The notes under the pieces were generated by a model, which was given only the letters and a program-made list of their open reading frames with translations, was not told where the DNA came from and did no database searches. The position numbers and the translations under genes are program-made. A stretch of 39,544 nucleotides of DNA from Bacteroidaceae bacterium (GTDB lineage: Bacteria; Bacteroidota; Bacteroidia; Bacteroidales; Bacteroidaceae), in assembly GCA_017448965.1 (NCBI GenBank), contig JAFSKK010000003.1, positions 1 through 39,544 of the forward strand, given 5' to 3'. Each line of letters begins with the position of its first letter. The stretch's first letter is position 1. Positions 5,009-39,385 of this stretch are shown in pieces.

Positions 5009-5077
5009 AACCGACGTCCCCGATGTCGGTCAACCGATGTCCCCGATGTCGGTCAACCGATGTCCCCGACGTCGGTT
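5009..5077. repeat. Palindromic CCGAYGT array, 23-bp period, three units
   Basis: Six copies of CCGAYGT start at 5011, 5020, 5034, 5043, 5057 and 5066, so the steps are exactly 9, 14, 9, 14, 9. Each 23-bp unit contains a 9+3+9 inverted repeat (ACCGAYGTC / GAYGTCGGT) and can form a hairpin on either strand. An almost identical array lies at 21808-21875. It is not next to a gene end: the nearest genes are gapA, about 430 bp to the left, and the 5825 operon. Confidence 0.9.
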
Positions 5078-5183
5078 TTGGGGCAGTGGAACAGTCAATC
5101 ATGACAGACCCTCTTAGCCCCTGTTCATTTTCTTACACTAACGCCAGTTCGGTATAAGAGAACTCATGTTATATGTTTTAAGT

Positions 5184-5404
5184 TTCGGATGTTCCAAACG
5201 CTTCATTTTCAACAACGAATAAAACGAATCATTCTAATTTACCATGCGGCGAGAAGATGTATTTCCCTAATGCCGCAAGCGGCTACGAATGAAATCGAAT
5301 GGCTACACTCAGCATTCGTTTTTATTCGTTGCACCTTTAGGTGCATTGTGCATTGTATAAATTCGTCATATTCGAAATATTCGTTGTTGAAAAAAGCATC
5401 CGAA
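5184..5404. repeat. Imperfect inverted repeat with AACGAAT/ATTCGTT heptamer pairs
   Basis: TTCGGATG (5184-5191) and the 13-mer at 5208-5220 recur inverted at 5379-5391 and 5397-5404. Inside, the word AACGAAT or its complement recurs in pairs 9-10 bp apart (5214/5223, 5284/5294, 5314/5324, 5361/5370/5379). A GCACC-TTTA-GGTGC type hairpin lies near 5331-5344. It could be a small mobile element remnant or a structured RNA; the sequence does not decide. Confidence 0.65.
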
Positions 5405-5594
5405 CCTTTAGCTCGACGAAGTCAAACTTCAATCATTATTATTATATATAATGTGTATTATCCCTGTCCTTATGCATGCAGGAGAGAAAGAGTCACTTCG
5501 TGCGCTGATTCTTTCTGAAGAAAAGGCATGGTTCAGGGCAAAAATGGTTCTGTTGTTAGAAAAAGTAAAAAAATGTAAAAAAGTGTCTGTTTTT

Positions 5595-5626
5595 TTTGGT
5601 GGGGGGGGTAAAAATCTGTACCTTTA
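5595..5626 (+). promoter_or_regulatory. Promoter of the 5825-10317 operon
   Basis: A -33 TTTG (5595-5598), exactly 20 bp, then a -7 TACCTTTA (5619-5626), a near-perfect Bacteroidota sigma-ABfr promoter. A run of G lies in the spacer. It implies a leader of about 190 nt before ATG 5825. Confidence 0.7.
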
Positions 5627-5824
5627 CACCGTCTAACATACATTGATAGGTGCTTTTGTGTGGCAAGACTCAACAAATAGTCCGTGTGCATGAAGAACGA
5701 AGAGTCACCCCGCTGATTCACTTCGAGATGACAGAGATTACTAATTAGCGCAAATCATCCTGGTTCTAACTATACATCAGAGTTTATAAACCCTATTTAT
5801 TCACTATTAAAAACTTAATTTACA

Positions 5825-6172
5825 ATGATGAAGACGAAAACGATTTCAATTCTCGCCTTCTTGTTCGTTTTTTCTTTAGGAGCAGCGGCGCAAGAAACGG
5901 CTGACGGACGCAAGGTGAAACGCATCACCTTCGACCAGGAACAAGTAAACATTGAGTATGCCGATGGCACCAAGGACCAAAAGGTGAGTGCTGCCACGGT
6001 TAAACGTGAGAACACCATCACGGGCATCGTGGCTGTCAAGAAGAAAGAAAGCCAGCAGACGACGCGCCAGTGGTACACTCTCGACGGTCGCCTCCTGCAG
6101 GGCGAGCCACAGCAGAAGGGTGTTTATATCGTGAGAGACAAGAACGGAAAGAAGAAAACCGTCAAAAAGTAA
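5825..6172 (+). CDS. Small secreted protein with T9SS-type C-terminal domain
   Basis: The product has 115 residues (the ATG at 5828 is an equally possible start). Residues 1-22 form a signal peptide ending LGAAAQ. A short beta-rich segment (KVKRITFDQEQVNIEYADG) resembles the N-terminal hairpin of the next gene's product. The tail, WYTLDGRLLQGEPQQKGVYI plus NGKKKTVKK, matches the short C-terminal domain that directs proteins to the type IX secretion system. The same kind of tail ends the products of the 8053, 22160 and 26903 genes. The next gene's ATG lies 7 bp after the stop, so the two are cotranscribed. It is almost only a signal, a hairpin and a CTD, so its job may be structural or regulatory within the operon; I do not know it. 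Confidence 0.75.
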   Translation: MMKTKTISILAFLFVFSLGAAAQETADGRKVKRITFDQEQVNIEYADGTKDQKVSAATVKRENTITGIVAVKKKESQQTTRQWYTLDGRLLQGEPQQKGVYIVRDKNGKKKTVKK

Positions 6173-6178
6173 GTGCTT

Positions 6179-8023: not shown

Positions 8024-8052
8024 CATAATAATAAATAAAAACAGTATTCACC

Positions 8053-10317: not shown

Positions 10318-10324
10318 ATATATG

Positions 10325-10343
10325 ATGCGGCAAGCCGCATTTT
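10325..10343 (+). terminator. Short hairpin after the 8053 gene
   Basis: ATGCGGC (10325-10331) and GCCGCAT (10334-10340) are separated by AA and followed by TTT. The stem is compact and the T-run short, so this is a weak terminator at best. Confidence 0.45.
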
Positions 10344-10344
10344 A

Positions 10345-10486
10345 GTGAAGAGTGAAAAGTGAAGAGTGAAAAATCTAAGTTACCTTTGTCATTGAGGAAG
10401 ATTCCGAATGGCTGGTAACTTAGATTTTTCACTCTTCAAGTACACTTGAAAAGACATTTCTTGCTTTTCTATGGTCACTTTTCACT
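10345..10486. repeat. Heptad repeats with nested inverted repeats
   Basis: GTGAAGAGTGAAAA occurs twice in tandem (10345-10358, 10359-10372), that is, four 7-bp words. A perfect 24-bp inverted repeat joins 10361-10384 and 10414-10437 across a 29-bp loop. An outer 12-bp pair joins 10351-10362 and 10475-10486, and a separate small palindrome sits at 10435-10450. The whole could fold into a large stem between the secreted-protein operon and the ABC-F promoter. Confidence 0.85.
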
Positions 10487-10488
10487 AA

Positions 10489-12138
<1,650 letters not shown>

Positions 12139-12166
12139 AGAGAAATAAGGTACTTGTGAAAGACAA

Positions 12167-14877: not shown

Positions 14878-14906
14878 CGTTGTCTTGAATTGTCCATTAT
14901 CCATTG
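14831..14906. repeat. CAATGGA heptad repeat, inverted pair, overlapping the transglycosylase start
   Basis: A 19-mer at 14831-14849 (CAATGGATAATGAACAATT) recurs inverted at 14888-14906 with one mismatch. In the second copy's sense the words CAATGGA and TAATGGA follow each other in 7-bp phase. The left copy lies inside the coding sequence and encodes the signal peptide core; the right one lies upstream of ATG 14877. Confidence 0.85.
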
Positions 14907-17332: not shown

Positions 17333-17376
17333 ATATGCCCTGTCAATCATTTTTACCTTCTCTTCCTTGTAGTGTG

Positions 17377-17384
17377 CAAAGTTA
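17377..17384 (-). promoter_or_regulatory. -7 box for the TPR lipoprotein operon
   Basis: The minus strand reads TAACTTTG followed by C, about 45 bp upstream of ATG 17332. Directly upstream on the same strand are four 7-bp words (ACTCCGA, AGTCCTA, ACTTTCA, ACTGCCA; 17421-17394) at the -33 position. Confidence 0.55.
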
Positions 17385-17393
17385 GAAAAAAAA

Positions 17394-17549
17394 TGGCAGT
17401 TGAAAGTTAGGACTTCGGAGTTTTTTTTGAAAAAGTGGAGAGTTAGGAACAAGATGTGGTGTTTTGTCACTTTTTGTGGATAAAAAACATGAAACGATAA
17501 AAAAATTGCCTGCTCCTGATTCCAAACTCCTAACTTTTTCCTAACTTTG
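17394..17549. repeat. ACTCCTA-type heptads facing outward between divergent genes
   Basis: Four heptads on the minus strand (17421-17394) and a second set on the plus strand (ACTCCTA 17526-17532, ACTTTTT 17533-17539, then CCTAACT) form an imperfect inverted pair. Each set runs into the -7 box of one of the two divergent genes. Confidence 0.65.
17542..17549 (+). promoter_or_regulatory. -7 box for the 17597 gene
   Basis: TAACTTTG followed by C, 48 bp before ATG 17597. Upstream heptads take the place of a normal -33 TTTG. Confidence 0.55.
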
Positions 17550-17596
17550 CGCCCGATTTCAGACATCAAACTACACATTATTATATTTATAACACA

Positions 17597-19877: not shown

Positions 19878-20254
19878 ATCATCAGCGACACACCATCATC
19901 ATCAAGGGGATGCGCGTCTATGCCTATCATGGCGTGATGGAGCAAGAGCGGAAGGTGGGAGGCAGTTTCACCATCGATGCCGAAGTCGATGCCGACTTCT
20001 CTGCCGCCATGCTCACCGACAACCTCTCCGACACCATCTCCTATGCCGACCTTCACCAACTCATCCGTCAGGAAATGGCCATCCCGTCACAACTCCTTGA
20101 GCATGTGGCAGGTCGCATCGCCGACACCATTTTCAAGCATTTCCCTCAGTCAGAAGCCATCCGTCTTCGCATCATGAAAGAGAATCCCCCGATGGGAGCC
20201 GATTGTCAGGGTGCGGGCGTGGAAATATTTGTTGAAAACCGAAAACAAAACTAA
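19874..20254 (+). CDS. folB: Dihydroneopterin aldolase
   Basis: The product has 126 residues, the usual FolB size (about 120). It converts 7,8-dihydroneopterin to 6-hydroxymethyl-dihydropterin and glycolaldehyde in folate synthesis, as a cytosolic octamer. Motifs: IIIKGMRVYAYHGVMEQER (8-26, with the active-site Tyr and Glu region), DTISYADL, LLEHVAGRIADTIF and LRIMKENPP with the catalytic Lys. The start codon overlaps the previous stop (ATGA). The MFS gene begins 7 bp after its stop, so it is the middle gene of a three-gene operon. No other folate gene is near. Confidence 0.94.
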   Translation: MNHQRHTIIIKGMRVYAYHGVMEQERKVGGSFTIDAEVDADFSAAMLTDNLSDTISYADLHQLIRQEMAIPSQLLEHVAGRIADTIFKHFPQSEAIRLRIMKENPPMGADCQGAGVEIFVENRKQN

Positions 20255-20261
20255 AATAGCA

Positions 20262-21731
20262 ATGAACACAACAACTAACAAAATGACCAACTATCGTTGG
20301 GTCATCTGTGCGATGCTCTTCCTCGCCACCACGGTCAACTACATGGATCGTCAGGTGCTCTCGCTCACGTGGAAAGACTTCATCGCCATCGATTTCCATT
20401 GGAGTGATGCCGACTACGGATTCATAACCGCCGCATTCTCCATCTTCTACGCTTTCATCTCTCTCTTCGCTGGCAAGTTCATCGACTGGATGGGCACGAA
20501 GAAAGGCTACATCTGGGCGATTGTCATCTGGTCCATCGGTGCCTGTCTGCATGCCATCTGTGGAGTGGTCACCATGTCGCTCACAGGCATCCCCGACGAG
20601 GAAGCCCTGCGTGCTGTTAAAGCCGGCACCGACCTTGCCCTCCTCGTCTCCACCATCAGCGTGTGGCTCTTCCTCGCCTGCCGCATCGTGCTCGCCACGG
20701 GCGAAGCAGGCAACTTCCCGGCCGCCATCAAGGTGACAGCCGAGTTCTTCCCCAAGAAAGACCGTGCCCTCGCCACCTCCATCTTCAATGCTGGAGCCTC
20801 CGTCGGCGCCCTTGCCGCACCGCTCACCATCCCCGTATTGGCCGAGAGCATGGGGTGGGAGATGGCATTCATCATCATCGGTGGAGTCGGATTCATCTGG
20901 GCAATTCTTTGGGCCGTGCTCTACAACAAACCGACAGAAAGCAAACGGGTGAACGCAGCCGAATTGGCCTACATCCAGCAAGACAGCAACGCACCAGCCG
21001 AAACAGAAAAGACCTCTGCATCCGCTCCTACGCGTGAGCAAGCCAACGACAACCTCCAGATTTCTTTCTTCAAGTGCTTCACCTATCGTCAGACTTGGGC
21101 ATTCATCGTAGGCAAGCTCCTCACCGACGGCGTGTGGTGGTTCTTCCTCTTCTGGGCACCTGCCTATTTCTCCGAACTCGGTTACAAGTCTTCCGACCCA
21201 ATGGGACAGGCACTCATCTTCGTGCTCTACCTCATCGTGACCGTCGTCTCCATCGGTGGCGGATACCTGCCCAAATTCTTTGTAGAGCAGAAGAACATGG
21301 AACCCTATTCAGGCCGCATGCTTGCCATGCTCATCTTCGCCTTCTTCCCCATCTTCGCCATGTTTGCCCAGCCGCTGGCAGGCACCTCCGTGTGGTGGCC
21401 CTGCATCATCATCGGCCTTGCAGGCGCAGGACACCAGTCGTGGTCGGCCAACCTCTATTCCACCATCGGCGATATGTTCCCCAAGTCCGCCATTGCCTCC
21501 ATCACCGGCATCGGCACCATGTTTGGCGGTCTCTGCTCCTTCGCCATCAACTGGGGAAGCGGCCTCCTCTTCACCTATGCCGAAGGTCAGGGCGAAGCCT
21601 TCCAGTTCTTCGGTGTCACAGGCAAGCCCGCAGGCTACATGATTGTCTTCTGCTACTGCGCCGTCGCCTACCTCATTGCATGGGCGCTTATGAAGGTGCT
21701 CGTGCCGAAGTACAAGCCCATCACGAAATAA
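20262..21731 (+). CDS. MFS transporter, hexuronate/anion:cation symporter type
   Basis: The product has 489 residues from ATG 20262. An in-frame ATG at 20211 lies inside folB and is unlikely. About twelve membrane helices. NYMDRQVLSLTWKDF (about 25-40) in helix 1 is the signature of the ACS family, which includes ExuT hexuronate transporters. ARTGEAG-like CRIVLATGEAGNFPAAIKV lies in helix 4, and a central cytoplasmic loop (about 240-280) is rich in Ala, Glu and Ser. Compared with ExuT (about 430 residues) it is longer, with extra sequence in the loop after helix 3 (SLTGIPDEEALRAVKAGTDL) and in the central loop. It is the last gene of the operon. No uronate catabolic genes are in the window, so the substrate is not supported by context. 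Confidence 0.87.
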   Translation: MNTTTNKMTNYRWVICAMLFLATTVNYMDRQVLSLTWKDFIAIDFHWSDADYGFITAAFSIFYAFISLFAGKFIDWMGTKKGYIWAIVIWSIGACLHAICGVVTMSLTGIPDEEALRAVKAGTDLALLVSTISVWLFLACRIVLATGEAGNFPAAIKVTAEFFPKKDRALATSIFNAGASVGALAAPLTIPVLAESMGWEMAFIIIGGVGFIWAILWAVLYNKPTESKRVNAAELAYIQQDSNAPAETEKTSASAPTREQANDNLQISFFKCFTYRQTWAFIVGKLLTDGVWWFFLFWAPAYFSELGYKSSDPMGQALIFVLYLIVTVVSIGGGYLPKFFVEQKNMEPYSGRMLAMLIFAFFPIFAMFAQPLAGTSVWWPCIIIGLAGAGHQSWSANLYSTIGDMFPKSAIASITGIGTMFGGLCSFAINWGSGLLFTYAEGQGEAFQFFGVTGKPAGYMIVFCYCAVAYLIAWALMKVLVPKYKPITK

Positions 21732-21807: not shown

Positions 21808-21875
21808 ACCGACGTCCCCGATGTCGGTCAACCGATGTCCCCGATGTCGGTCAACCGATGTCCCCGATGTCGGTT
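21808..21875. repeat. Second palindromic CCGAYGT array, 23-bp period, three units
   Basis: Six copies of CCGAYGT start at 21809, 21818, 21832, 21841, 21855 and 21864 (steps 9, 14, 9, 14, 9). It differs from the 5009-5077 array at one base within the core; the flanks are unrelated. It starts 77 bp after the MFS stop codon. Confidence 0.9.
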
Positions 21876-26890: not shown

Positions 26891-26902
26891 ATCTAACGCT
26901 CT

Positions 26903-29900
26903 ATGAAAGCTATCAAGTATATCCAATCATTGCTCATCCTGTTGCTCGTCTCGCTGACGGCACAGGCGCAAGACTTCAACGAGATCAGCGTGAAGGACGT
27001 GAACGGCATGCGTGGCAAGATTGTGTCCGTGCCCGTCTATCTGACCAACACGCAGGAGGTGACCGCCGTGCAGTTCGACATCACCATGCCATCGGGTTCC
27101 CAAGTATATCTCGACTCCACACAGGTAGCCGACAACCGCCGCGTTGACCACGTCATCAGCGGCTACAACAAGGGCAGCTACCGCTACCGCTTCATGTTCT
27201 ACTCGCCCACTAACCAAGCGCTGCTGGGCAACACGGGACGCCTGTGCAACATCGTCTTCAAGGTTTCCACCTACCTCGACGACACACAGACATACGACTT
27301 CAAACTCTCCAACATCGTCATGTCAGACTTGCAGGGCAACCCCATCGAGGTCACCTCGCAAGATGGCCATCTGACCCTGCAGAGTTACCCCGACTTTGAG
27401 GTGAGCAACCTCACGGTGACGAAGTCCAACATGGTGCCGGGTGGCACGATGACACTTGCGTGGACGGTGAAGAACATTGGCGAGACTGCCTCCACGGGGG
27501 GATGGAAGGAGAACTTCTACCTGACCAATGACGAGGGCACACAGGTGACCGTAGGCTCGAACAGCTTCGAGAACACAGGACTGGCACCGGGTGCCAGCAT
27601 CCAGCGCAGCATCGAGGTGACGTTGCCTGAAGTCTTGGGCATCGACGGCAACGTGAAGGCCAAGGTGGCCATCAAGGGCAACAGCGACGCTGGCGAACGC
27701 TCCGAACAGGAGTGGAACAACAGTGCCACCGCTGAGACAGGGCTGAACCTGAGCAAGCAGCTGACACTCACCATGCCCGCCAAGGCCATTGCCGAGAACT
27801 ACCGCTACAACGTCAGTTGCCAAATCAGCCGAAGCGGCAACCGCTCGACAGAAGAGACCTTTACGCTGACATGCAACAAGCCCGACCGCCTGGAAGTGCC
27901 AGCCACCGTCACCATCGGCAGAGGATCGTCGGCAGCCAACTTCTATGTGAAGGTGAAGGACAACACTGTGTATAACGAAGAGGACAGCGTCGTGATCATT
28001 ACGGTCACAGGCACTGGCTATACCGCTGCCACGGGCAGGTTCATCATCGAAGATAACGAATACCCGCAGATGCAGCTGACGACCTCCAAGCAAGCCGTCA
28101 CGGAAGGGGAGAAGTTCACCCTGACCGTCACCCTGCCGAAGGCTGCGACCACAGATACACAAATTAACTTTGCCTGCGACGATGCCAAGCGTTTCAACTT
28201 CCCGGCATCGGTCATCATCGCCAAAGGCAAGAAGACTGCCACCATCGAGGTGGAAGCCATCGACAACGAGAAGGCAGAACTGGAACTGACCACCGCCTTC
28301 TACGCCACGGCCGAGAAGTATGAGAAGGCACAGGTGCTGATGGTGCTGGAAGATGATGACATGCCTGAGCTGGAGATGACGTTCTCACCCACCACCATCA
28401 CAGAAAGCGCGGGTTTGGCTGCCGTGAAGGTGAAACTGGTTCGCAAGACCCTGACCGACCGCGAAGTGACCATCCAGATGAGTGACGATAGCCAGAACGG
28501 TGACATCTACTATGCCCAGAAGCGCTTCACCCTGAAGAAGGGCGTGACCACGGCAGAGTTTGCCATTGGCGTGGTCGATAACGTAGAGGTAGATGGCGAC
28601 CGCACCGTCAACGTGACCGCTGGCGTTTGGGCCACTTCCTGCAACTGCTCCGCAACAGGCAGTGAGATTGGAGCAGCCACCGTGGCACTCACCATCCTCG
28701 ACGATGACGGTCCATCACTGAGCGTTGCATCTTCTTCGTCTTCCCTCCTGGAGGGCAAGGAAAATGCCACCACGCTGACCGTCAGACGCAACACGGGCAA
28801 GAGCGGCACCACCATCGTCACCATCACGAGCGACCGTGAGGAAGACCTCAACTATAACCACACTGTCACCATCCCCGACGGTCAGGAGACAGCCACCGTG
28901 AGCATCAACGCCAAGAAGAACTCGGTGGCTGACGACGAGCGCACCGTGGTCTTCACCGTGACGAGCGACGGCTTCACACAGGGCACTTGCTGGGCACTCA
29001 TCACCGATCAGAGCCTGCCCGATGCCACCGTGGATGCTGTAACCCTTGCCACAACGGAGGTGGGGGCTGGAGAGAAGGTCGATGTGACCGTGACCGTCAA
29101 CAATATCGGCAACGAGCCACTGCCCACATCAACCCTAGTGAACATCTACATCGGCTCCACCCACCTCACCACCCTCTACACCCAGGAGGACATCGCCGCA
29201 GGTGAGAGCGCCACCATCAGCTATCCCGTACAGATGCCTGATGTGGCTGGCGACTACCAGCTGAAGGCCGTGGTAAACGAGGAGAAGAAGGTGAAGGAAC
29301 TCATCTATCTGAACAACACCTCGGCGACCACGCCCATCACCCTCGTAGCCAGCTTCACCGCAACGGCTGAGGTGGAGAAGAATGTGTTTACTGCCTACGA
29401 AGACGTCACCATCACCGGCAAGGCGACAGGTACCAACGTGAGCAACCGTGAGGTGGAGCTATACCTGGTGCACAGCGGCATGCGCGACACCCTTCTCGTA
29501 ACGACGGATGCCACAGGCAACTTCTCCGCCACCTACAACCCGCGTGGTGTGGCAGGTCACTACGATGTGGGTGCCTGCTATGTGGGCGAGGGGCTGACGA
29601 AGGCACAGGACAGTTTCGACGTGTATGGCATGAAACTCACCAGCAGTTCGTTCATGAAGTACGAACCATCGGTAGGCATCCCCTATCAGGCTAAGGTGAG
29701 CATCAGCAATATGGGTGTCCTGCCATTGCACAATGTGCGGATGGAAGTGGTGTCGATGGGCGACGAGATAGAGCTGAATCAGACCCCTATTGCCACGTTG
29801 GACGGCAACAAGCAGGACGACCTCGCCTTCACGCTGACTGGCAAGGTGGCTAGCAGCGGCAACCAGTGGCAGTACCTCAGGGTGAAGTTCACCAGCGACG

Positions 29901-32900
29901 AGGGAGCCGAGTTCGACGGAACCATTTACTACTTCAACCGTATCGCCACGGGCAAGATTCGTGCCAGCATCAGCAGCATCAAGACCACGATGACGAAGGG
30001 TCAGAGCCGCGACTACGTGTTCGACATCACCAACATCGGTCAGGGAGAGACGGGCAAGATTACGCTCTCTATGCCTGACAACGCTAAGTGGATGGTGGCT
30101 TCGACCGGCAAGGAAATGGGTTCGCTTGCCACCAACGACACCACCCAGATTGTGCTGCGTCTCACACCGACAGACGACCTGCAACTGAACGTGCCACAGC
30201 GCGGCACTATTGGCATCAACTGCGAGAATGGTGAGGGACTCCCCTTGTCGTTCGTGATTGAGCCAGTGTCGGAGAGCACGGGAAAGCTGATTGTGGATGT
30301 GTGTGACGAATACACTTACTATACTGAAGAAGCACCCCATGTGAAGGGCGCACAGGTGACCGTGAGCCATCCGACCACAGGTGCTGTCATTGCTAAGGGC
30401 GTGACGGGCGAGGATGGACACTTCGTCGTGGAAGACCTGCCCGAAGGCTACTACACGCTCTACGTAACAGCCGAGAAGCATGAGTCTTACCGCAACAACA
30501 TCCTCGTGGATCCAGGTGTGGACAACGAGCGTGTCATCAACCTGAGTTATCAGGCGGTGACCATCAACTGGAACGTGGTGGAGACCACCGTGGAAGACGA
30601 GTACGAAATCGTGACCACCTGCACCTTCGAGACCCACGTGCCGAAGCCAGTCGTGACCCTCCGAGGCCCCGAAAAACTTGACATCGACGCGATGGAGGTA
30701 GGCTCTTCGCAGATTCTCTACTACACGCTGACCAACGAAGGACTTATCAATGCCCTCAACACCACGTTCGAGGTGCCGACAGGCTTGCACGAAATGAAGT
30801 TTGAGGCACTGGCCAACGTAGGTCCCTTCACGCTGGCACCGCATCAGGCCGTGCAGATTCCTGTGCGTGCCACCCGCATTTCCGACGGCAGCATTCCTGC
30901 TGGTGCCAAGCACCGTGCAGAGTCTGCTCAGATGCAGAAATTCCGCGACTGCTTCGCCGGCTTCTCCGCTTATTATGAAGTGCTGTGCGGCAAAGACATG
31001 AAGAACGACAAGGCACTCGTCTCCCTCGCCCTGCGCGCTTGTCTGGCCAGTCAATTGATGCAAGGAACCGGTGGTGGCGGCACACTCGGCAACCCCGGTG
31101 GTGGCGGCGGCGGCGACTACTACACAGGAGGCAGTTATGGAGGAATCTCCACGGGCAGCGACGGCCTCTGCGACCCCGACCTTACATCTGCAGCAAAGGG
31201 TGGCATAGACGGATTGGCAGGCAAAGGCAACCCCTTATTCGGAATGGCTGCAGCTGCTGAAAGTGCAGCAAGAGACTGGGCTGTGGATGGAAAGTTGAGT
31301 GCACCAACCATCATCGACCTCGGAATGAACTATGGCGGACCGATGAATGATGCAGCCAAGGTGTGCAAGGGACCTCTGACCAACCTCACGACCAAGAATC
31401 CGCTGATAGATAAGGGCATCGAAACAGTATCGGACTACGCTTCCGACATCTGGACGTTCGGAAATCCCATCATCGACTACACGAAGAGCAGTGCGGGTCA
31501 TGGCAAAGTCAGAACGGTCGAACAGATGGCCGAAGAGCTGAAGGCTGGACTGCCACGCCGCAGAGCCTCGTCCTACAGTTGGGTGGATGCCTTTGCCAAC
31601 ACACTCTACAAATACCACGAGCAACTGGAGGCTGTGGTGCGTCTGCAAGAAGAGTACTACGGCGATAGCATCTGGTGGGCAGGACCTACGTTCGACCCGA
31701 CCATCGAGACCTTCTTCCAGATGATGCAGAAGTATGACGAGTATCAGGAAGCCATGTGGCATCAGGGTGCCGAGGAACATTGGAGACTCTCCGAAATTGC
31801 AGACAGGATGGTCGAATACATGGAGATGGCCAAGCCTCAGTCTGTCACGATGGAGCAGATGAAGGCACTGATGATGCGCATCCGCTGCACAGCTCATAAT
31901 GGAGGTTCACCCGAAGACCGCATGGACCTGAACAAAATCAAGGCTGAGCTGGAGCTTATCAACAGTTTTGACAACGAGGCCATCAGCAACGGCTATCCAG
32001 ACATGACTGACTGGTTCTGGCAGTCCTTCGAGGACTTCAAGAAGGCATACGACGAGGCAGCGAAGAGTTCCGTTTGTGTGAGCATCAAAATACAGTTCAA
32101 GCAGAACATGGTGCTGACCCGTCAGGCCTTCCGAGGAACGCTGACCGTGGAGAACGGCAACGAGGACACTCCAATGAAGGACGTGAAGCTGAGCCTCAAG
32201 GTGACCGATGAGGTGGGCAACGTGGCCACCAGCCACGAGATGCACATGGAACCTGAATCGCTTGACGGCTTCACAGGTGAACTGAAGGGTGCCGACGGAT
32301 GGGAACTGGCGCCTGGCGCAACGGGAACAGCCACCATCCTCTTCATCCCGACCAAGTATGCTGCTCCGACCGAGGAAAAGCTCTACAACTTTGGCGGTTC
32401 GCTCACCTACACTGACCCCTACACGGGACTGACCGTGACACGCGACCTCTCGCCTGTCACCCTGACCGTGAAGCCATCGCCCAACCTCGACCTCACTTAC
32501 TTCATGCAACGTGATATCTGGGGCGATGACCCACTGACCAAGGACAAGGTGGAACCGATGGAGGAGGCTGAGTTTGCCCTGCTCATCAACAACGTGGGCT
32601 ATGGCGATGCCACCAACGTGCGCATGACCACGCATCAGCCTGAGGTGGTGGAGAACGAGAAGGGACTGCTCATCGACCTCGAGCTCATCAGCAGCCAGCT
32701 GAACGGAGGCTACAAGACCCTCGCACTGGGAGGAAGCGTGCCGACTCAGTTTGGCAACATCCCTGCGCAGAGCACCACATACGCACAGTGGTGGTGGCAG
32801 TCGTCGCTGCTGGGCCACTTCACCGAGTATGACGTGCAGGCCACCCACCTGACCAGCTATGGCAACGAAGACCTCACCCTGCTGAACAACGTGGAGATTC

Positions 32901-35113
32901 ACGAGCTCATCCGAAGCCTGAACACCACGGATGCAACGGGTCAAGCATTGAAGGCTTGGCTGGTGAATGATGTGGCGGATGCATACGACACGCCCGACAT
33001 GCTCTACTTGAGTGACGGAACCACGGAGAAGGTGAACCTCGTCAGCACAGCTTCAACCACGCGCAACGACCTGACCCACTACACGCTCACCGTGACACCC
33101 AGCAACACCAACGGCTGGCACTACGGCAGCGTGATGGATCCGACCCTCGGACGCGCGGTCATCAAGAGCATACGCCGTGGCGATGGCGAGTACATCGACC
33201 TGCGCAACGTTTGGCAGACCGACCGCACCTTGCGCGACGGCATGGATCCACTCTACGAGTACCGCATCCACTTTGCCGACAAACTCCTGACGAACGGTGC
33301 CGACCAGACGTATGAGATTACCTTTGAACTGAAGCCTTCCAACCCGTTGACCGTCTCTTCATTCGACGGACTGCCTGAGAAGAACGAGGTGTCGACTACG
33401 GCTGTGGGCACCATCACGCTCAACTTCAACAAGGCACTCCGTACCGATGTGACGGCAGAACATCTGCGTCTGGAATGCCAAGGCAAGAAGGTGACAGAGG
33501 AACCCGTCGTGACGAAGGTGGACAACAAGACCTACAAAGTGGATTACCCCAATGCCACGACCGAAAGCGGCTACTTCGTCATGCTGGTTTACAACTCCAA
33601 ACTGACTGACGAAGAAGGATACCACGGCGAGTATGAGTCGCAGGCCATCTGGACACAGTTCCTTGACGGACAATGCAAGGTGACCACCGTAGTCACTCCT
33701 GCGGATGCCGGCACGGTGACTCCAGGCTCTGGCATCCAGACATACGGAGCTGACGTCACTTACACAGCCACACCAAATGCCCACTACCTCTTCAAGCACT
33801 GGAGCGATGGCGACGAGGTGCTCTCGACTAACGCCACCTACAAGCTGAACGTAGACAACAACAAGATGCTCTATGCCGAGTTCGTTCCGTGCCAATATGC
33901 CGTGACGCTCGACTTTGACGGAGAAGGCGGCACAGTGGAAGGCATCGGTACCAGCAACTACGAGTATGGCACGACACTCTCCATCACAGCGAAGCCAGAC
34001 AAGGACTACACCTTCGAAGGCTGGCAAGTGAACGGCCAGAAGGTGAGCACGGAGACCACGTATGAACTGACCATCGGTGGAGTCACGAACGTGAAGCCAC
34101 TCTTCGCTTACACGCCTGCTACACTGACCATCACCTATAACCTCGTGAAGGGATGGAACTGGATCTATGTGAACCCTGCCGACCAACCTATGACTTGGGA
34201 AACGCTATTGGCGCCTGTCGCTGACAAGGTGGAGGAGGTGAGAGGCCCGTCGGGTGTGGCCACAACGCTCAGTCCCGACACCTGCTATCAGGTGCTGATG
34301 AGCGAGAATGTGGCCCTTGATGTGTTGACTCGCACCAACAACCTCAATAACTATGTGTCGCTCAAGAAGGGCTGGAACTGGATCAGTTACCGTTCGTTCG
34401 AGACGCTCGACGTGAACACGGCCATGGTCAACTTTGCCGCACAGGAAGGCAACATTCTGAAGGGACAAGACGGCTTTGCAGTGTATGACGGCACACAGTG
34501 GACAGGCTCACTCGTCGAGATGCATCCAGGTCAGGGCTATCAGCTCTACTCACTTTACTCCACGACATTCACCTATCCAACTACAGCATTGACGAAGTCC
34601 CTTATCGTGGGAACAGACTATGCAGAAGTGATGAATGCCAAGGCGAGAAGTGGGGTGGTGACCACGTTGCCCGAAGAGGTGGATCGACGCAAGTACGCCA
34701 ACAACATGTGCATTATTGCCGATGTGAAAAACAACGGTATGTTAGACAACTCCGAAGGTTACATCATCGGCGCTTTTGTCGGCGATGAGTGCCGAGGCAT
34801 TTCTCAACTCGTCAACAGCAAATACTTCATCACCATCTACGGCGACGAGAATGAGGAAGTGAACTATCATGTCTTCGACAGCATCAAGAGAGACTATCTC
34901 GAAACGCAGGGTGGCAGTTCCTTCGACCAGAAGGCCACGGCCAGCATGAAAGAGCCAATCGAAGTGCTGATAGAGAATGCAACAGGAATTGGAAACGTGG
35001 CTGAGTCGGATGGACGTTTCGTCAGAGGCACCTACAACCTTGCAGGTCAGAGGGTCAACGCTTCCTACAAAGGTGTTGTCATCAGAAACGGCAAGAAGAG
35101 GCTTGTGAAGTGA
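26903..35113 (+). CDS. Giant multi-domain surface protein with N-terminal cohesin-like domain and T9SS-type CTD
   Basis: The product has 2736 residues. Signal peptide 1-22 (ends AQAQ). Domains read from sequence: cohesin-like 24-157 (GKIVSVPVYLTNTQEVTAVQ, FDITMPSGSQVYL); CARDB 163-275; four Calx-beta-like units about 281-705, with acidic ends (EDNEYP, EDDDMP, DDDGP); second CARDB 706-814; Ig-like 815-909; more beta modules to 1125; carboxypeptidase-regulatory-like 1127-1215 (VTGEDGHFVVEDLPEGYYTL); a helical region about 1338-1720 interrupted by a Gly-rich linker (GTGGGGTLGNPGGGGGG, near 1390); beta modules to 2140; Big_5-like 2148-2254; two InlB B-repeat-like units about 2257-2403; two GWNWI units (2417, 2490); CTD (YNLAGQRVNASYKGVVIRNG). 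It lies 12 bp downstream of the dockerin LRR gene, so the two are cotranscribed. It is probably an extracellular scaffold or adhesin. No enzyme motif is seen. Confidence 0.87.
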   Translation: MKAIKYIQSLLILLLVSLTAQAQDFNEISVKDVNGMRGKIVSVPVYLTNTQEVTAVQFDITMPSGSQVYLDSTQVADNRRVDHVISGYNKGSYRYRFMFYSPTNQALLGNTGRLCNIVFKVSTYLDDTQTYDFKLSNIVMSDLQGNPIEVTSQDGHLTLQSYPDFEVSNLTVTKSNMVPGGTMTLAWTVKNIGETASTGGWKENFYLTNDEGTQVTVGSNSFENTGLAPGASIQRSIEVTLPEVLGIDGNVKAKVAIKGNSDAGERSEQEWNNSATAETGLNLSKQLTLTMPAKAIAENYRYNVSCQISRSGNRSTEETFTLTCNKPDRLEVPATVTIGRGSSAANFYVKVKDNTVYNEEDSVVIITVTGTGYTAATGRFIIEDNEYPQMQLTTSKQAVTEGEKFTLTVTLPKAATTDTQINFACDDAKRFNFPASVIIAKGKKTATIEVEAIDNEKAELELTTAFYATAEKYEKAQVLMVLEDDDMPELEMTFSPTTITESAGLAAVKVKLVRKTLTDREVTIQMSDDSQNGDIYYAQKRFTLKKGVTTAEFAIGVVDNVEVDGDRTVNVTAGVWATSCNCSATGSEIGAATVALTILDDDGPSLSVASSSSSLLEGKENATTLTVRRNTGKSGTTIVTITSDREEDLNYNHTVTIPDGQETATVSINAKKNSVADDERTVVFTVTSDGFTQGTCWALITDQSLPDATVDAVTLATTEVGAGEKVDVTVTVNNIGNEPLPTSTLVNIYIGSTHLTTLYTQEDIAAGESATISYPVQMPDVAGDYQLKAVVNEEKKVKELIYLNNTSATTPITLVASFTATAEVEKNVFTAYEDVTITGKATGTNVSNREVELYLVHSGMRDTLLVTTDATGNFSATYNPRGVAGHYDVGACYVGEGLTKAQDSFDVYGMKLTSSSFMKYEPSVGIPYQAKVSISNMGVLPLHNVRMEVVSMGDEIELNQTPIATLDGNKQDDLAFTLTGKVASSGNQWQYLRVKFTSDEGAEFDGTIYYFNRIATGKIRASISSIKTTMTKGQSRDYVFDITNIGQGETGKITLSMPDNAKWMVASTGKEMGSLATNDTTQIVLRLTPTDDLQLNVPQRGTIGINCENGEGLPLSFVIEPVSESTGKLIVDVCDEYTYYTEEAPHVKGAQVTVSHPTTGAVIAKGVTGEDGHFVVEDLPEGYYTLYVTAEKHESYRNNILVDPGVDNERVINLSYQAVTINWNVVETTVEDEYEIVTTCTFETHVPKPVVTLRGPEKLDIDAMEVGSSQILYYTLTNEGLINALNTTFEVPTGLHEMKFEALANVGPFTLAPHQAVQIPVRATRISDGSIPAGAKHRAESAQMQKFRDCFAGFSAYYEVLCGKDMKNDKALVSLALRACLASQLMQGTGGGGTLGNPGGGGGGDYYTGGSYGGISTGSDGLCDPDLTSAAKGGIDGLAGKGNPLFGMAAAAESAARDWAVDGKLSAPTIIDLGMNYGGPMNDAAKVCKGPLTNLTTKNPLIDKGIETVSDYASDIWTFGNPIIDYTKSSAGHGKVRTVEQMAEELKAGLPRRRASSYSWVDAFANTLYKYHEQLEAVVRLQEEYYGDSIWWAGPTFDPTIETFFQMMQKYDEYQEAMWHQGAEEHWRLSEIADRMVEYMEMAKPQSVTMEQMKALMMRIRCTAHNGGSPEDRMDLNKIKAELELINSFDNEAISNGYPDMTDWFWQSFEDFKKAYDEAAKSSVCVSIKIQFKQNMVLTRQAFRGTLTVENGNEDTPMKDVKLSLKVTDEVGNVATSHEMHMEPESLDGFTGELKGADGWELAPGATGTATILFIPTKYAAPTEEKLYNFGGSLTYTDPYTGLTVTRDLSPVTLTVKPSPNLDLTYFMQRDIWGDDPLTKDKVEPMEEAEFALLINNVGYGDATNVRMTTHQPEVVENEKGLLIDLELISSQLNGGYKTLALGGSVPTQFGNIPAQSTTYAQWWWQSSLLGHFTEYDVQATHLTSYGNEDLTLLNNVEIHELIRSLNTTDATGQALKAWLVNDVADAYDTPDMLYLSDGTTEKVNLVSTASTTRNDLTHYTLTVTPSNTNGWHYGSVMDPTLGRAVIKSIRRGDGEYIDLRNVWQTDRTLRDGMDPLYEYRIHFADKLLTNGADQTYEITFELKPSNPLTVSSFDGLPEKNEVSTTAVGTITLNFNKALRTDVTAEHLRLECQGKKVTEEPVVTKVDNKTYKVDYPNATTESGYFVMLVYNSKLTDEEGYHGEYESQAIWTQFLDGQCKVTTVVTPADAGTVTPGSGIQTYGADVTYTATPNAHYLFKHWSDGDEVLSTNATYKLNVDNNKMLYAEFVPCQYAVTLDFDGEGGTVEGIGTSNYEYGTTLSITAKPDKDYTFEGWQVNGQKVSTETTYELTIGGVTNVKPLFAYTPATLTITYNLVKGWNWIYVNPADQPMTWETLLAPVADKVEEVRGPSGVATTLSPDTCYQVLMSENVALDVLTRTNNLNNYVSLKKGWNWISYRSFETLDVNTAMVNFAAQEGNILKGQDGFAVYDGTQWTGSLVEMHPGQGYQLYSLYSTTFTYPTTALTKSLIVGTDYAEVMNAKARSGVVTTLPEEVDRRKYANNMCIIADVKNNGMLDNSEGYIIGAFVGDECRGISQLVNSKYFITIYGDENEEVNYHVFDSIKRDYLETQGGSSFDQKATASMKEPIEVLIENATGIGNVAESDGRFVRGTYNLAGQRVNASYKGVVIRNGKKRLVK

Positions 35114-35119
35114 CAAAAG

Positions 35120-35184
35120 CGGTCTGAGTCACACCGTTGTGGTCGGTGTGACTCAGACCGGGTATATTGGTGTGACTCACACCG
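35120..35184. repeat. Palindromic GGTSTGA array, 24-bp period, three units
   Basis: Units start at 35120, 35144 and 35168. Unit 1 (35120-35136) is the exact reverse complement of unit 2 (35144-35160), giving a 17-bp perfect stem with a 7-nt loop. Unit 3 contains the palindrome GGTGTGACTCACACC (35169-35183). The array begins 6 bp after the stop of the giant gene. Confidence 0.9.
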
Positions 35185-35198
35185 CCTTTGAGGATTTG

Positions 35199-35267
35199 AA
35201 TAAAAGGAAATCTCCTATCTGCAACCCTGATTGTTGGGGATATGCAGGTGGGAGATTTCCTTTTATT
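35199..35267. terminator. Bidirectional terminator between the giant gene and pheS
   Basis: A 17-bp perfect inverted repeat (35199-35215 / 35251-35267, core AAAAGGAAATCTCC) is bordered by A/T runs, with extra pairing in the 35-nt loop. Confidence 0.75.
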
Positions 35268-35302
35268 GTTTTGTTTGTTTTTCTGTTGAGGATATCCGTG
35301 TG

Positions 35303-36322: not shown

Positions 36323-36361
36323 ATCATTGTCTATTTTATGTGCTGTTTTTGAAAATCGGTG

Positions 36362-36369
36362 CAAAGATA
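36362..36369 (-). promoter_or_regulatory. -7 box for pheS
   Basis: The minus strand reads TATCTTTG followed by C, 40 bp before ATG 36322. The heptad array at 36378-36412 occupies the -33 position. Confidence 0.55.
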
Positions 36370-36377
36370 CGAAAAAA

Positions 36378-36412
36378 ACTCCTAACTCCTAACTTCAAAC
36401 TCCTAACTTTTG
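36378..36412. repeat. ACTCCTA heptad array between divergent promoters
   Basis: Five consecutive 7-bp words: ACTCCTA, ACTCCTA, ACTTCAA, ACTCCTA, ACTTTTG. It fills the interval between the -7 boxes of pheS (-) and the 36442 lipoprotein gene (+). Confidence 0.85.
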
Positions 36413-36414
36413 TT

Positions 36415-36422
36415 TATCTTTG
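36415..36422 (+). promoter_or_regulatory. -7 box for the 36442-murB operon
   Basis: TATCTTTG followed by C, 19 bp before ATG 36442. The heptad array abuts it on the upstream side. Confidence 0.55.
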
Positions 36423-36441
36423 CATCGTTTTTCGAAAAACT

Positions 36442-37284
36442 ATGAGAAAAGGTTTAGTTATTGCAGTAGCGACGGGTTGTCTTCTTCTCTCTTGTCAGGA
36501 TAAGAAGATGACGAATGCTTTCGAGCAGGAAGGCGATGCGGAGGAGGACTCTCTGGAGGCGTTTGCCGGCGACACGCTCCACCTGTTCGAGGAGGAGGAG
36601 CCTCCGGCAGCGGTGGACGAATTGTTCGACGACTTTTTTTATAACTTCTTGGGCGATTCGAAGTTCCAGGGGCAGCGCATCTCCTATCCCTTGCCCTGCA
36701 AGAAGGGCGGTGAGGAGGAGAAACTCTCCAAGTCGGAATGGCCGCAGTTTGACCATTTCAAGCATCAGGAACTCTTGTCGGTCATCTACGAACGTGAGCA
36801 TGACCTTGTGCTGGCGAAGGACACCTCGATGCAGAGCGTGGCTGTGGAGTGGATTGGGTTGAAGAATGACGAGGTGCAGAAGTTCCATTTCAACCGCGTG
36901 GAGGGCAAATGGATGCTGACCGAGATTGACAGGCAGCAGCGAGACGACACGCCGAACGGCGATTTCCTGAACTTCTATGCCCGGTTCATTGCCGACAGCA
37001 CCTTCCAGCGTGAGGCGCTGGCCACTCCCGTGAAGGTGATTCTCACCTCGGAGGACGGCGAGGAGGATGCGGAGGAAGAGCATCTGGATGCGGACGAATG
37101 GTTCGAGATGAGGGAAACCATTCCGCTGCCGACCGAGGCGCTCGTGAATGTGAACTACGGACAGGCTTGCATCAGCCAGAACCGCAAGATTCTGATGTTG
37201 GAGGGCATCAGCAACGGCATGCAGATGAAGTTCAAGTTCAACAAGCAGGGCGACAACTGGAAACTGATGGAAATTGAATACTGA
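36442..37284 (+). CDS. Acidic lipoprotein, DUF4348-like
   Basis: The product has 280 residues from ATG 36442; upstream in-frame codons lie in the promoter. The lipoprotein signal [18 protein letters not shown] gives lipid Cys18. A Glu/Asp-rich spacer (about 25-60) precedes a domain starting [20 protein letters not shown], then [11 protein letters not shown] and a C-terminal beta-rich half ([22 protein letters not shown]). I associate this pattern with Bacteroidota lipoproteins of the DUF4348 type, from memory and with moderate certainty. The acidic spacer contains [16 protein letters not shown]-like runs in two places. It is followed 20 bp later by murB, which suggests an envelope role, but no function is known to me. 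Confidence 0.8.
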
Positions 37285-37304
37285 CCCACCCATACGTTGG
37301 GTTA

Positions 37305-38333
37305 TTGAACATCAAAAACATTGAGAAGTTGAAAGAATATTCGAATTATAGTTTGCTGAACCACAATACGTTTGGGATGGATGTGAAAGCCAAACGTTAT
37401 GTGGAGTATGACAGCGAAGAGGAACTCAAGGAACTGATTCACACATTGGATGGCGATGTGCTTCACATCGGTGGCGGCTCAAATCTGCTCTTCAAGGGCG
37501 ACTATGCTGGCACCATCCTGCACAGTGCCATCAAGGGTGTCGAGATAGCTGAAGAGGTGGAGGGAGAAGATGAGGTGCTGGTGCGCGTTGGTGCTGGAGA
37601 GGTGTGGGATGACTTTGTTGGATGGGCTGTCGCTCAGGGTTTGGGCGGTGTGGAAAACCTGTCGCTCATTCCAGGCGAGGTGGGTGCGAGTGCCGTGCAG
37701 AATATCGGTGCCTACGGTGTGGAGGCGAAAGATGTGATTGTGTTGGTGGAGGCGATAGAGTTGGCCAGCGGACAGAAGCGCATCTTTGGTAATTTGGAGT
37801 GTGATTATGCCTATCGCCAGAGCATCTTCAAGAATCAGTTGAAAGGCAAGTATGCCATCACATACGTGACTTATCGTTTGCAGAAGACACCTGTGCTGAA
37901 GTTGGAATACGGAAATATCAAGGCTGTTTTGGGCGATAAGGATAACCTGACGATAAAGGATGTTCGTCAAGCCATCATCGACATTCGCAATGCCAAACTG
38001 CCAGACCCGAAAGTGCAGGGAAATGCAGGCAGTTTCTTCATGAATCCTGTGGTGAGTCGCGAGAAGTTTCTGGCTCTTCAGAAGGAATATCCGCAGATGC
38101 CTTTCTACGAAGTGGCAAATGGCGTGAAGATTCCGGCAGGATGGATGATTGACCAATGCGGTTGGAAAGGAAAGTCGCTCGGCAGGGCAGGCGTTCACGA
38201 CAAACAGGCCTTGGTGCTGGTGAATCTTGGCGGAGCCTCTTCCGACGAAATCGTCACGCTTTGCGAAACTATCTGCAAGGATGTTCACGAGAAGTTTGGC
38301 ATTGACATTCACCCAGAAGTCAACTTTATCTGA
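37305..38333 (+). CDS. murB: UDP-N-acetylmuramate dehydrogenase MurB
   Basis: The product has 342 residues, the E. coli-type long MurB. It is an FAD enzyme that reduces UDP-GlcNAc-enolpyruvate to UDP-MurNAc in the cytosol, a committed step of peptidoglycan synthesis. Motifs: [20 protein letters not shown] near the start, FAD-binding [39 protein letters not shown] (catalytic Ser), [17 protein letters not shown], and the final HPEVNFI with the catalytic Glu. There is no ATG in frame before these motifs: the first candidates are TTG 37305 and TTG 37329 (an ATT lies between). I use 37305. It follows the lipoprotein gene by 20 bp. Confidence 0.94.
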
Positions 38334-38378
38334 CAAACTCTTTTTGTGTGGCTCTCAACACCTTTGGTGTTTCGACAG

Positions 38379-38458
38379 ACAATAATTACCAATAATTACC
38401 AAAAATTGGTTCCAATAATTATTGGATAAAATTATTGCAAATTATTGGTAATTATTGT
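38379..38458. repeat. AT-rich dyad built from AATAATT words
   Basis: A 19-bp perfect inverted repeat joins 38379-38397 and 38440-38458. AATAATTACC occurs twice in tandem (38381, 38391) and its complement twice at 10-bp steps on the right. A 14-bp palindrome, CCAATAATTATTGG (38412-38425), lies at the centre. It sits between murB and the PhnP-like gene. Small hairpins lie outside it (AACACC/GGTGTT near 38357-38370; GGCAC/GTGCC near 38467-38481). Confidence 0.85.
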
Positions 38459-38519
38459 TTTTCCAAGGCACACCAAGTGCCGAAGGAGCATAAAAAACAT
38501 TTTTGAAAATACATTTTTT

Positions 38520-39305
38520 ATGAAGATAACGATACTTGGTTCTGGCACTTCTTGCGGCGTTCCTCAAATTGGCTGCAACTGCGAGGTGTGCACCTCCACC
38601 GACCCGAAGGACAAGCGTCTGCGTTGTTCGAGCCTCGTCGAAGTGAAGGGCAAGCGCATCCTCATCGATTGCGGCCCCGACTTTCGCGAACAGATGCTCC
38701 GTATTGATTTCAAACCGATTGATGCTGTGCTCATCACGCATGAGCATTATGACCATGTGGGCGGATTGGACGACCTGCGTCCCTACAGCATTTTTGGCGA
38801 TGTGGATGTCTATGCCGAGAAGTTCTGTGCCGATCATTTGGTGGAACGCATCCCATACTGCTTCATCCCCAAAGAGAGACGCTATCCAGGTGTGCCAGCC
38901 CTGAATCTGCTAGAGATGGAACCACACGTGCCCGTCGTGGTTGGCGACGTCAACATCATCCCCATCCGCGTGATGCACGGAAAACTGCCCATTGTCGGCT
39001 TCCGCATCGACAACTTTGCCTATATCACCGACATGAAGACGATTCCCGACGAGGAATTGACCTATCTGCAAGGCATCGACTACATGATTGTCAACGGCCT
39101 TCGTCATAAGGAACATCCCAGTCATCAAAGCATCGAGGATGCCATCGCTTTCGCTCGTCAATTGAACGTGAAAGACGCTTGGCTTGTCCACATGAGTCAC
39201 CACATCAGGCCTCATGCCGAAGAAGAGAAACTGCTTCCTAGGGGCATCCACTTGGCCTACGATGGAGAGGTCGTCGAATTCTGTAATCCAGCTCTTGAAG
39301 TGTAA
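38520..39305 (+). CDS. PhnP-like metallo-beta-lactamase-fold hydrolase
   Basis: The product has 261 residues from ATG 38520; in-frame codons upstream run into the AT-rich repeat. The start MKITILGSGTSCGVPQIGC continues with a Cys cluster (GCNCEVCTSTDPKDKRLRCSS, residues about 18-38) that matches the PhnP zinc site. HEHYDH is the intact HxHxDH metal motif, followed by GGLDDLRPY. VMHG, FAYITDM and LVHMSHH supply the remaining ligands. PhnP proteins are cyclic phosphodiesterases of the C-P lyase pathway, but this wider family occurs in many Bacteroidota that lack phn genes, and none is seen here. The substrate is therefore open. The stop codon lies inside the first word of the TGTWACA array. Confidence 0.88.
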   Translation: MKITILGSGTSCGVPQIGCNCEVCTSTDPKDKRLRCSSLVEVKGKRILIDCGPDFREQMLRIDFKPIDAVLITHEHYDHVGGLDDLRPYSIFGDVDVYAEKFCADHLVERIPYCFIPKERRYPGVPALNLLEMEPHVPVVVGDVNIIPIRVMHGKLPIVGFRIDNFAYITDMKTIPDEELTYLQGIDYMIVNGLRHKEHPSHQSIEDAIAFARQLNVKDAWLVHMSHHIRPHAEEEKLLPRGIHLAYDGEVVEFCNPALEV

Positions 39306-39385
39306 CACATGTAACACACGCACTGTTACAAATGTAACACTGGCGCTGTTACACTTGTAACACTGTATGTGTAACAAATGTTACA
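39301..39385. repeat. TGTWACA array, exact 23-bp period, four units
   Basis: Eight copies of TGTAACA or TGTTACA start at 39301, 39310, 39324, 39333, 39347, 39356, 39370 and 39379: steps 9, 14, 9, 14, 9, 14, 9. The 16-bp cores (for example TGTTACAAATGTAACA) are near-palindromes, separated by 7-bp spacers of differing sequence. The array includes the stop codon of the PhnP-like gene. Confidence 0.92.

Follow-up and report, generated by a model that had tools for sequence, protein, structure and literature searches.

Can the spacing of a short DNA repeat outlast its sequence? The question is raised by a stretch of 39,544 nucleotides from a Bacteroidaceae bacterium (the window; contig JAFSKK010000003.1 of assembly GCA_017448965.1), in which intergenic arrays built on different seven-base words keep nearly the same spacing. 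A sequence-only reading of the window had proposed that the arrays were unrelated, that they shared a layout of seven-base word, 2 bp, seven-base word and 7 bp, and that one mechanism, counting length rather than sequence, made or recognised them. Here we describe the arrays, their copies in the genome that contains the window (G000; a draft of 3.03 Mb in 74 contigs, 85.6% complete) and their counterparts in related species. The arrays prove to be real and unusual, and they are widespread among the genera sampled.

Results

Pitch and abundance of the arrays

The four arrays were found where the sequence-only reading had placed them, and the steps between word starts were confirmed by direct reading of the sequence. 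In array 1 the word CCGAYGT starts at 5011, 5020, 5034, 5043, 5057 and 5066, giving steps of 9, 14, 9, 14 and 9; the same word runs from 21809 with identical steps in array 2; and in array 3 the word TGTWACA starts at 39301, 39310, 39324, 39333, 39347, 39356, 39370 and 39379. The fourth array, at 35120-35184, was also confirmed, with three units at a 24-bp pitch. The steps of 9 and 14 occur because each 23-bp unit is a pseudo-palindrome, and the proposed layout is better described as one pseudo-palindrome every 23 bp. The unit of family A, to which both array 1 and array 2 belong (these two are therefore not unrelated), is CCGAYRTC-NNN-GAYRTCGG plus 4 bp, and that of family B is TGTWACA-NN-TGTWACA plus 7 bp. 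Tandem Repeats Finder (TRF) scores were 126 and 129 for the two family A arrays and 88 for array 3.

Family A is represented in G000 by 91 units (44 two-unit matches) and family B by 73 units, and the reversed patterns of both families gave 0 units each in this genome. Eleven genera of the order were then scanned in their intergenic DNA without regard to sequence, by self-similarity at lags of 15-60. Of the 81 arrays returned, 55 had lags of 21-24 and a further 12 had lags of 41-46. Lags of 21-24 accounted for 18 of 22 arrays in G000, 20 of 25 in five sister species and 17 of 34 in ten other genera, seven of which contributed. The 18 arrays of the G000 sample represent about eleven different words. 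Order-2 resampled intergenic DNA gave zero arrays at lags 5-60 in one resampling, and ten resamplings at a stricter threshold gave a mean of 0.0 arrays at each lag printed. The E. coli control also gave no arrays, in only 8.6 kb of intergenic DNA, where about four would be expected at the density of G000. The consensus unit showed dyad symmetry (p<0.05) in 21 of the 55 arrays at lags 21-24, compared with 7 of 26 at other lags; such symmetry is common, not universal. Two outcomes that would undercut a shared geometry, arrays no commoner than in shuffled DNA and arrays that are copies of one mobile element of fixed sequence, were looked for in part, on samples, and neither was found.

Anatomy of the arrays

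An array needed one exact unit or more as its seed, from which it was extended to units with 60% of the fixed letters; strongly decayed arrays are missed by this procedure. The sample from G000 comprised, among the matches listed, 23 family A arrays and about 15 family B arrays. All 23 family A arrays have exactly three units, and family B arrays mostly have four. The arrays of genome G034 hold three units in 25 of 26 cases; in genome G007, 10 of the 16 arrays hold three units, 5 hold four and 1 holds five. Departures from the fixed letters numbered 4 in 828 cells for G000, 3 in 924 for G034 and 13 in 550 for G007. The central trinucleotide is CCC/GGG in 69/69 family A units of G000 and in 52/55 units of G007, and GAC/GTC in 77/77 units of G034. 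In these samples each family thus has a near-uniform word within a genome, and a mechanism that counts length, not sequence, does not agree with a word and centre so nearly invariant.

Two stem positions are degenerate at 36-45%. At the degenerate positions of family A the two halves of the unit form Watson-Crick pairs at frequencies of 0.43 and 0.26, compared with 0.54 and 0.47 under independence, and in G034 at 0.34 and 0.31, compared with 0.48 and 0.46. Since pairing falls below independence in both, the halves look separately read. In G007 pairing is mixed, above independence at two degenerate positions and below it at the third (0.44 vs 0.55). Polarity and covariation were analyzed in 72 three-unit arrays (20 of family A, 25 with the G034 word, P, 10 with the G007 word, Q, and 17 from sisters), leaving out duplicates and arrays of other unit number. 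The outer units face each other with one polarity in 45 of these arrays, with the opposite polarity in 6, and point in the same direction in 21, and no covariation between units was detected beyond the family consensus. By eye, CCYC-NAAA-like arms bound many arrays of each word. The inverted arms of family A are imperfect, and 20-bp arms pair no better within arrays than between arrays. Outer half-sites were seen by eye around family B arrays, seven at 23 bp and three at 15 or 24, and CGTC, which like GTAG serves as a tag at one end of repetitive extragenic palindromes, is present inside many family A units. This anatomy fits a roughly two-fold symmetric set of half-sites in duplex DNA.

The same site with different words

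The gene for glycerate kinase carries an in-frame three-unit insert between the same codons in 13 of the 30 loci returned, and 17 loci lack it. The inserts come in four word versions, two of which differ in the central trinucleotide only (Table 1). The central claim of the sequence-only reading, constant geometry with changing sequence, is borne out here by 13 species that hold four word versions at one site with a 23-bp pitch, and in intergenic DNA by the 55 of 81 arrays at a pitch of 21-24 bp. At 69 bp, three 23-bp units preserve the reading frame. In-frame copies were also observed in the middle of a long CbiD-like open reading frame (ORF), at 2084-2148 in L339 (G013:C93) and 2442-2483 in L340 (G038:C27), and at the C-terminus of a phosphopantetheinyl-transferase-like ORF in G000, both names coming from a reading of the translations, not from a family search. 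All gene-internal copies are translated in the same frame.

Arrays at shared positions outside genes were also compared. An A-type array lies within 260 bp downstream of the major facilitator superfamily (MFS) transporter gene in 4 of the 30 genus loci returned, as judged by eye (G000, G013, G041 and G003), in three word versions; two other loci hold an unrelated 21-bp array, and the G002 locus holds an apparent partial unit (by eye). Behind the metallo-beta-lactamase-fold gene, no family B array was seen by eye up to 230 bp past the stop codon in the other loci returned (0/29). Among 110 A-type arrays from 16 record sets, there are 57 pairs in which arrays of different sets flank corresponding gene ends; one of the pairs may be a single species counted twice. 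The distances to the gene are often identical (54/54, 67/67, 31/31 and 574/574), and 15 of the 57 pairs differ in word, one of these 15 at unlike distances. Five of the 16 G007 arrays occupy sites that hold family A elsewhere, where about one coincidence is expected by a rough estimate. Of the 26 G034 arrays only two have a partner in the set, which points to frequent gain and loss.

Words across genomes

Word counts per genome required two adjacent exact units. Family A matches were found in 12 of 101 related genomes, all of one genus, and none in G034 or G007. The database records with A arrays (44 stretches) are all titled Prevotellaceae, Bacteroidaceae or Bacteroidales, and several are from rumen. 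Among the matches listed, the centre is CCC/GGG in G000, both CCC/GGG and CCG/CGG in G013, and mostly GTC/GAC in G041, G036, G016 and G011. The P word, YCGYACCC-NNN-GGGTRCGR, gave 40 matches in G034, 2 in G017, 1 each in G019 and G035, and 0 in G000. The Q word, YCGRYGTG-NNN-CACRYCGR, gave 23 in G007, 5 in G003, 2 in G017, 1 each in G025, G038 and G041, and 0 in G000. Each of G000, G034 and G007 has a main word, and some genomes hold two. Carriage by phages was considered and dropped, as no exact A-type two-unit match was found in IMG/VR viral contigs.

Gene context, folding and transposases

Genes were called with our own hexamer scorer. The genes flanking 74 arrays (A, B, G034 and G007 words) are divergent in 19 cases, co-directional in 44 and convergent in 11, and the corresponding shares of intergenic length in the G000 sample are 26%, 64% and 10%. 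Array orientation is close to these shares, with no clear gene-orientation bias, and an apparent clustering of arrays behind stop codons did not hold up in the counts. Eleven A arrays were informative for G-U versus A-C mismatches: in 5 the difference agreed with the sense strand, and in 6 it ran against it; 12 further A arrays had no single sense gene or no difference. The ratio of G-T to A-C mismatches was 53:10 on the CCC strand of family A, 43:38 in G034, 18:19 in G007 and 14:45 in GTC-centred sisters. No Rfam match at gathering score was obtained in the window and eight loci. As judged by gene orientation and sense strand, neither of which shows a clear bias, the arrays do not look like intrinsic terminators.

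Folding as single-stranded DNA was far stronger than that of shuffles for three of the four window arrays (z -3.8 to -7.9), but not for the array at 21809 (z -0.88 and 0.27). The hairpin that spans array 1 and its arms gave z -5.6 on the + strand and -4.7 on the - strand.

Y1 transposases were searched for in G000 and 100 relatives (drafts). None was found in 6 of the 12 A-bearing genomes (G000, G002, G010, G011, G013 and G038), nor in G034 and G007. Matches over the cut-off were obtained in the A-bearing genomes G003, G041 and G019 (strong, 7.8e-19), and sub-threshold matches in G016, G025 and G036. An origin from REP-associated tyrosine transposases (RAYTs; REP, repetitive extragenic palindrome) was rejected, as no Y1 transposase is present in G000, though some sisters have one. 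The Pfam scan of flanking proteins covered 138 of 148 proteins, and among the 25 of 195 families listed there was no striking family that would indicate a shared regulon or neighbour gene, and no transposase; the top family was MFS_1, with 5 of 138.

Features of the window and other repeats

The coordinates of the arrays and neighbouring genes, together with the glycerate kinase inserts, are given in Table 1. The first unit of the family B array contains the stop codon of the preceding ORF (38445-39305).

Table 1. Array features and neighbouring genes of the window, and word versions of the glycerate kinase insert
Feature	Position in window	Strand	Description	Genomes
Family A array 1	5011..5075	none	3 units (5011-5029, 5034-5052, 5057-5075); centre CCC; pitch 23 bp	
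Array 1 with imperfect inverted arms	4995..5091	none	arms TTCCACAGCCTCTCAA ... TTTTGGGGCAGTGGAA; single long hairpin when folded	
MFS transporter gene	20211..21731	+	family A array 2 downstream	
Family A array 2	21809..21873	none	3 units; pitch 23 bp; 77 bp past MFS transporter stop	
Family C array	35121..35183	none	3 units GGTSTGASTCASACC; 24-bp pitch; 7 bp past stop of ORF 26903-35113	
Metallo-beta-lactamase-fold gene	38445..39305	+	ends within family B array	
Family B array (array 3)	39301..39385	none	4 units TGTWACA-NN-TGTWACA; pitch 23 bp	
Probable end of high-copy insertion sequence	39405..39544	-	GAGGGTGTGTCAAAA; sequence recurring near contig ends	
Glycerate kinase insert, CCC centre				G000, G013
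Glycerate kinase insert, GTC/GAC centre				G025, G016, G041, G003, G036, G038, G011, G010
Glycerate kinase insert, GTG-CAC word				G007, G017 (less regular)
Glycerate kinase insert, CACCC-GAC word				G034

Two very large genes lie between the MFS and pheS genes of the window (22160-35113); one product has 1576 aa and BspA-type leucine-rich repeats, and the other has 2736 aa. In G036 a pheS-like region was read by eye close behind the MFS stop. At least six of the ten places listed for the sequence GAGGGTGTGTCAAAA (39405-39419 in the window) are no more than about 140 bp from a contig end (in G000, C13:223383, C24:103, C27:41420, C40:77147, C46:126 and C53:126); it probably marks the terminus of a high-copy insertion sequence at which the assembly breaks. 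A stretch of the form GTGCAAAGTTACNAAAAAAA occurs at four places in the window (3287-3319, 4661-4693, 17361-17393 and 36346-36378); it is perhaps a Bacteroidota promoter element.

Plain tandems of seven-base words had been listed by the sequence-only reading as well. They were short but real by TRF at 10344-10372 and 36377-36408, weak at 14888, where there are two copies only, and absent at 17394, where the sequence contains no ACTCCTA tandem and the nearest related stretch is at 17499-17550. These plain tandems seem to be an ordinary class of repeat in their own right. Eight arrays at lag 7 were counted in the 400 kb of the five sister samples. An intergenic heptamer array of the CCCTAAA/CTCTAAA type, resembling plant telomere repeats, lies at G016:C30 60764-60916 and is distinct from the 23-bp arrays. 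Tandem arrays of 43 bp, about twice the usual pitch, with near-identical units were observed at G011:C25 7452-7603 and G056:C1 27866-28042.

Discussion

Proposed binding platforms with a changing word

The reading that we tentatively favour, with a chance a little short of even, is that the arrays are copied, symmetric binding platforms in duplex DNA, of MITE (miniature inverted-repeat transposable element) or REP grade, and that their word undergoes concerted evolution; we infer both the protein and the copying. The arrays would be copies of several short dispersed repeat families, MITE- or REP-sized, each with a set number of pseudo-palindromic units (three in family A, mostly four in family B) at a pitch of two helical turns, 23 bp in the genus's main families. 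A dimer of some sequence-specific protein would recognise each unit in duplex form, and the units, placed on one face of the helix, would form a single two-fold symmetric complex of three or four dimers. The copies may be homogenised by transposition, by gene conversion or by both, so that a new word would displace the old one across the genome and the geometry demanded by the protein complex would persist. Candidate proteins are a transposase or recombinase, or a chromosome-organising protein. A bolder form of this reading, which we regard as speculative and rather unlikely, is a recognition code of the Bacteroidales with a fixed geometry and a freely variable word. Dimer sites in groups of three or four, two helical turns apart, would be bound by one protein or by a protein family whose DNA-contacting residues change fast, and a shift in specificity would cause dozens of arrays throughout the chromosome to be rewritten in place, even within genes. 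The array set suggests an undescribed DNA-recognition or copying system.

Several observations weigh against binding platforms with a concerted word. Pairing of the halves in G007 is above independence at two degenerate positions (0.65 vs 0.55 and 0.78 vs 0.71). The facing polarity of outer units comes mainly from G034 (20 of 25 arrays) and the GTC-centred sisters (11 of 17); G000 is split, with all units alike in 10 of 20 arrays, and G007 has essentially no polarity (4, 3 and 3). The A and Q words coexist in G003, G038, G041 and G025, which is unexpected if one protein of strict specificity is at work. The glycerate kinase alleles free of the insert are too diverged to place its ends, and neither a target-site duplication nor a clean empty site was obtained. 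The strong folding of three of the four window arrays is compatible with a role as single strands. No DNA-binding protein, transposase or recombinase was identified for the arrays, and the array-adjacent gene families listed are ordinary.

It is possible, though doubtful, that the arrays are instead selfish MITE-like elements, in which transposase or recombinase subunits bind the 23-bp repeats and a change of word marks the invasion of a new subfamily, the old copies being lost or overwritten. The inverted arms of family A are consistent with such elements, as are the in-frame copies in glycerate kinase, CbiD-like and phosphopantetheinyl-transferase-like genes and the differences in presence and absence between species, with most G034 arrays partnerless; the BrickBuilt element offers a precedent (PMC4596501), and GAGGCTGTGTCAAAA arms on two A copies (L103 and L104) resemble the local insertion-sequence end. 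However, new insertions would not be expected to exchange the word at one and the same codon or at an unchanged distance from a gene, invariant positions beside saturated ones are unlike the result of recent copying alone, 20-bp arms do not pair better within arrays, and neither an autonomous partner nor a target-site duplication was found. Neutral concerted evolution, by ectopic gene conversion, slippage and template switching at imperfect palindromes, would need no binding protein, with length-preserving processes keeping the geometry, and we consider it improbable. It would account for a word that is near-uniform within a genome family and different between genomes, the similar arms on different words could be conversion tracts, and the pairing in G007 is slightly above independence at two degenerate positions. 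Yet correction at palindromes should raise pairing at variable positions, which is below independence in family A and G034, slippage should vary the unit number, which is three in 23/23 and 25/26 arrays, and the pitch of 21-24 bp shared by unrelated words in several genera is left unexplained.

A role as RNA hairpins, either 3'-end stabilisers or terminators as proposed for REPs, is very unlikely. Some arrays do lie just past stop codons (35121 and 39301 in the window), and folding, computed with energies for single-stranded DNA, is strong in three of the four arrays of the window. This explanation is not supported by gene orientation, which is near the intergenic length share (19/44/11 of 74), by sense-strand wobble, which is balanced (5 vs 6) with a skew that reverses between families, by covariation within and between units, which does not exceed the consensus, or by Rfam, with no match in the window and eight loci. 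The lack of orientation bias and of unit covariation, together with the absence of Y1 transposases from six of the twelve A-bearing genomes (G000 among them), argues against both RNA hairpins and a REP/RAYT system. Short tandem repeats are common in intergenic DNA and heptamer repeats are present here, but ordinary minisatellites or a meaningless chance periodicity are scarcely credible, given that resampled DNA gave no arrays, that the lag peak is sharp and that the array is conserved at one codon in 13 species; for the A-type families the lag peak, the glycerate kinase site and the array anatomy refute them.

Significance and comparison with known systems

Sequence is what usually identifies a dispersed repeat in bacteria; in the present arrays the spacing lasts and the sequence changes. 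Searches by sequence miss such elements between neighbouring species; scanning for the spacing instead recovers them from several genera of the order. At one coding site the change of word can be followed through 13 species, which provides a concrete test of repeat homogenisation in bacteria, and the arrays may point to a DNA-binding or copying protein with shifting specificity. In the open-licence literature, no description of such arrays in Prevotella-type bacteria or Bacteroidales was found.

The short tandemly repeated repetitive (STRR) sequences of cyanobacteria are plain 7-bp head-to-tail repeats between genes. They share with the present arrays the intergenic position and the repetition of short words, whereas the units here are 23-bp pseudo-palindromes in a set number. 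The ends of Tn7-like elements carry three or four transposase-binding repeats at a pitch of about 22 bp, which are non-palindromic, and the element carries genes; the present arrays are palindromic, and no element genes were recognised. REPs, the bacterial interspersed mosaic elements (BIMEs) that they form and their RAYTs are closer in some respects, as dispersed short palindromes of high copy number that are grouped and can lie within genes (PMC3733652, PMC2817692). The present arrays differ in that no Y1 transposase was found in 6 of the 12 A-bearing genomes, G034 or G007, in that they show no bias to 3' gene ends or against divergent gaps (19 of 74), REPs being located mainly in convergent or co-directional gaps, and in their fixed pitch and unit number and the replacement of the word at orthologous sites. 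Rickettsia palindromic elements, of about 150 bp, are inserted in frame in unrelated genes and encode a recurring peptide (PMC10969869), a habit shared by the copies in three gene types here; they belong to another phylum, and the available part of that source describes no 23-bp internal periodicity or word replacement.

The closest known system is BrickBuilt of Porphyromonas gingivalis, a minisatellite-MITE with a tandem 23-nt unit and 19 copies in ATCC 33277 (Klein et al. 2015, PMC4596501), which is likened here by its description, not by its unit sequence. A Bacteroidota relative has been described, where the sequence-only reading knew of no equivalent. BrickBuilt is likewise a Bacteroidales, intergenic repeat with a 23-nt tandem unit, matching the 23-bp pitch of families A and B, and the 22-, 23- and 41-nt repeats that the same source cites in P. 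gingivalis fit the lag peaks of the present scan. Its leader and tail have short inverted ends and its repeats are imperfect. In contrast, BrickBuilt has 1 to 22.8 units, whereas family A has three and family B mostly four; it is always intergenic, whereas copies here lie in frame within genes (glycerate kinase and the CbiD-like ORF); and in the available text of PMC4596501 the string "palindrom" is absent and no switching of words between species is described. Within the literature searched, dispersed palindromic repeats and minisatellite-MITEs are a known kind of element, and a fixed geometry combined with words that are rewritable at the same sites is new.

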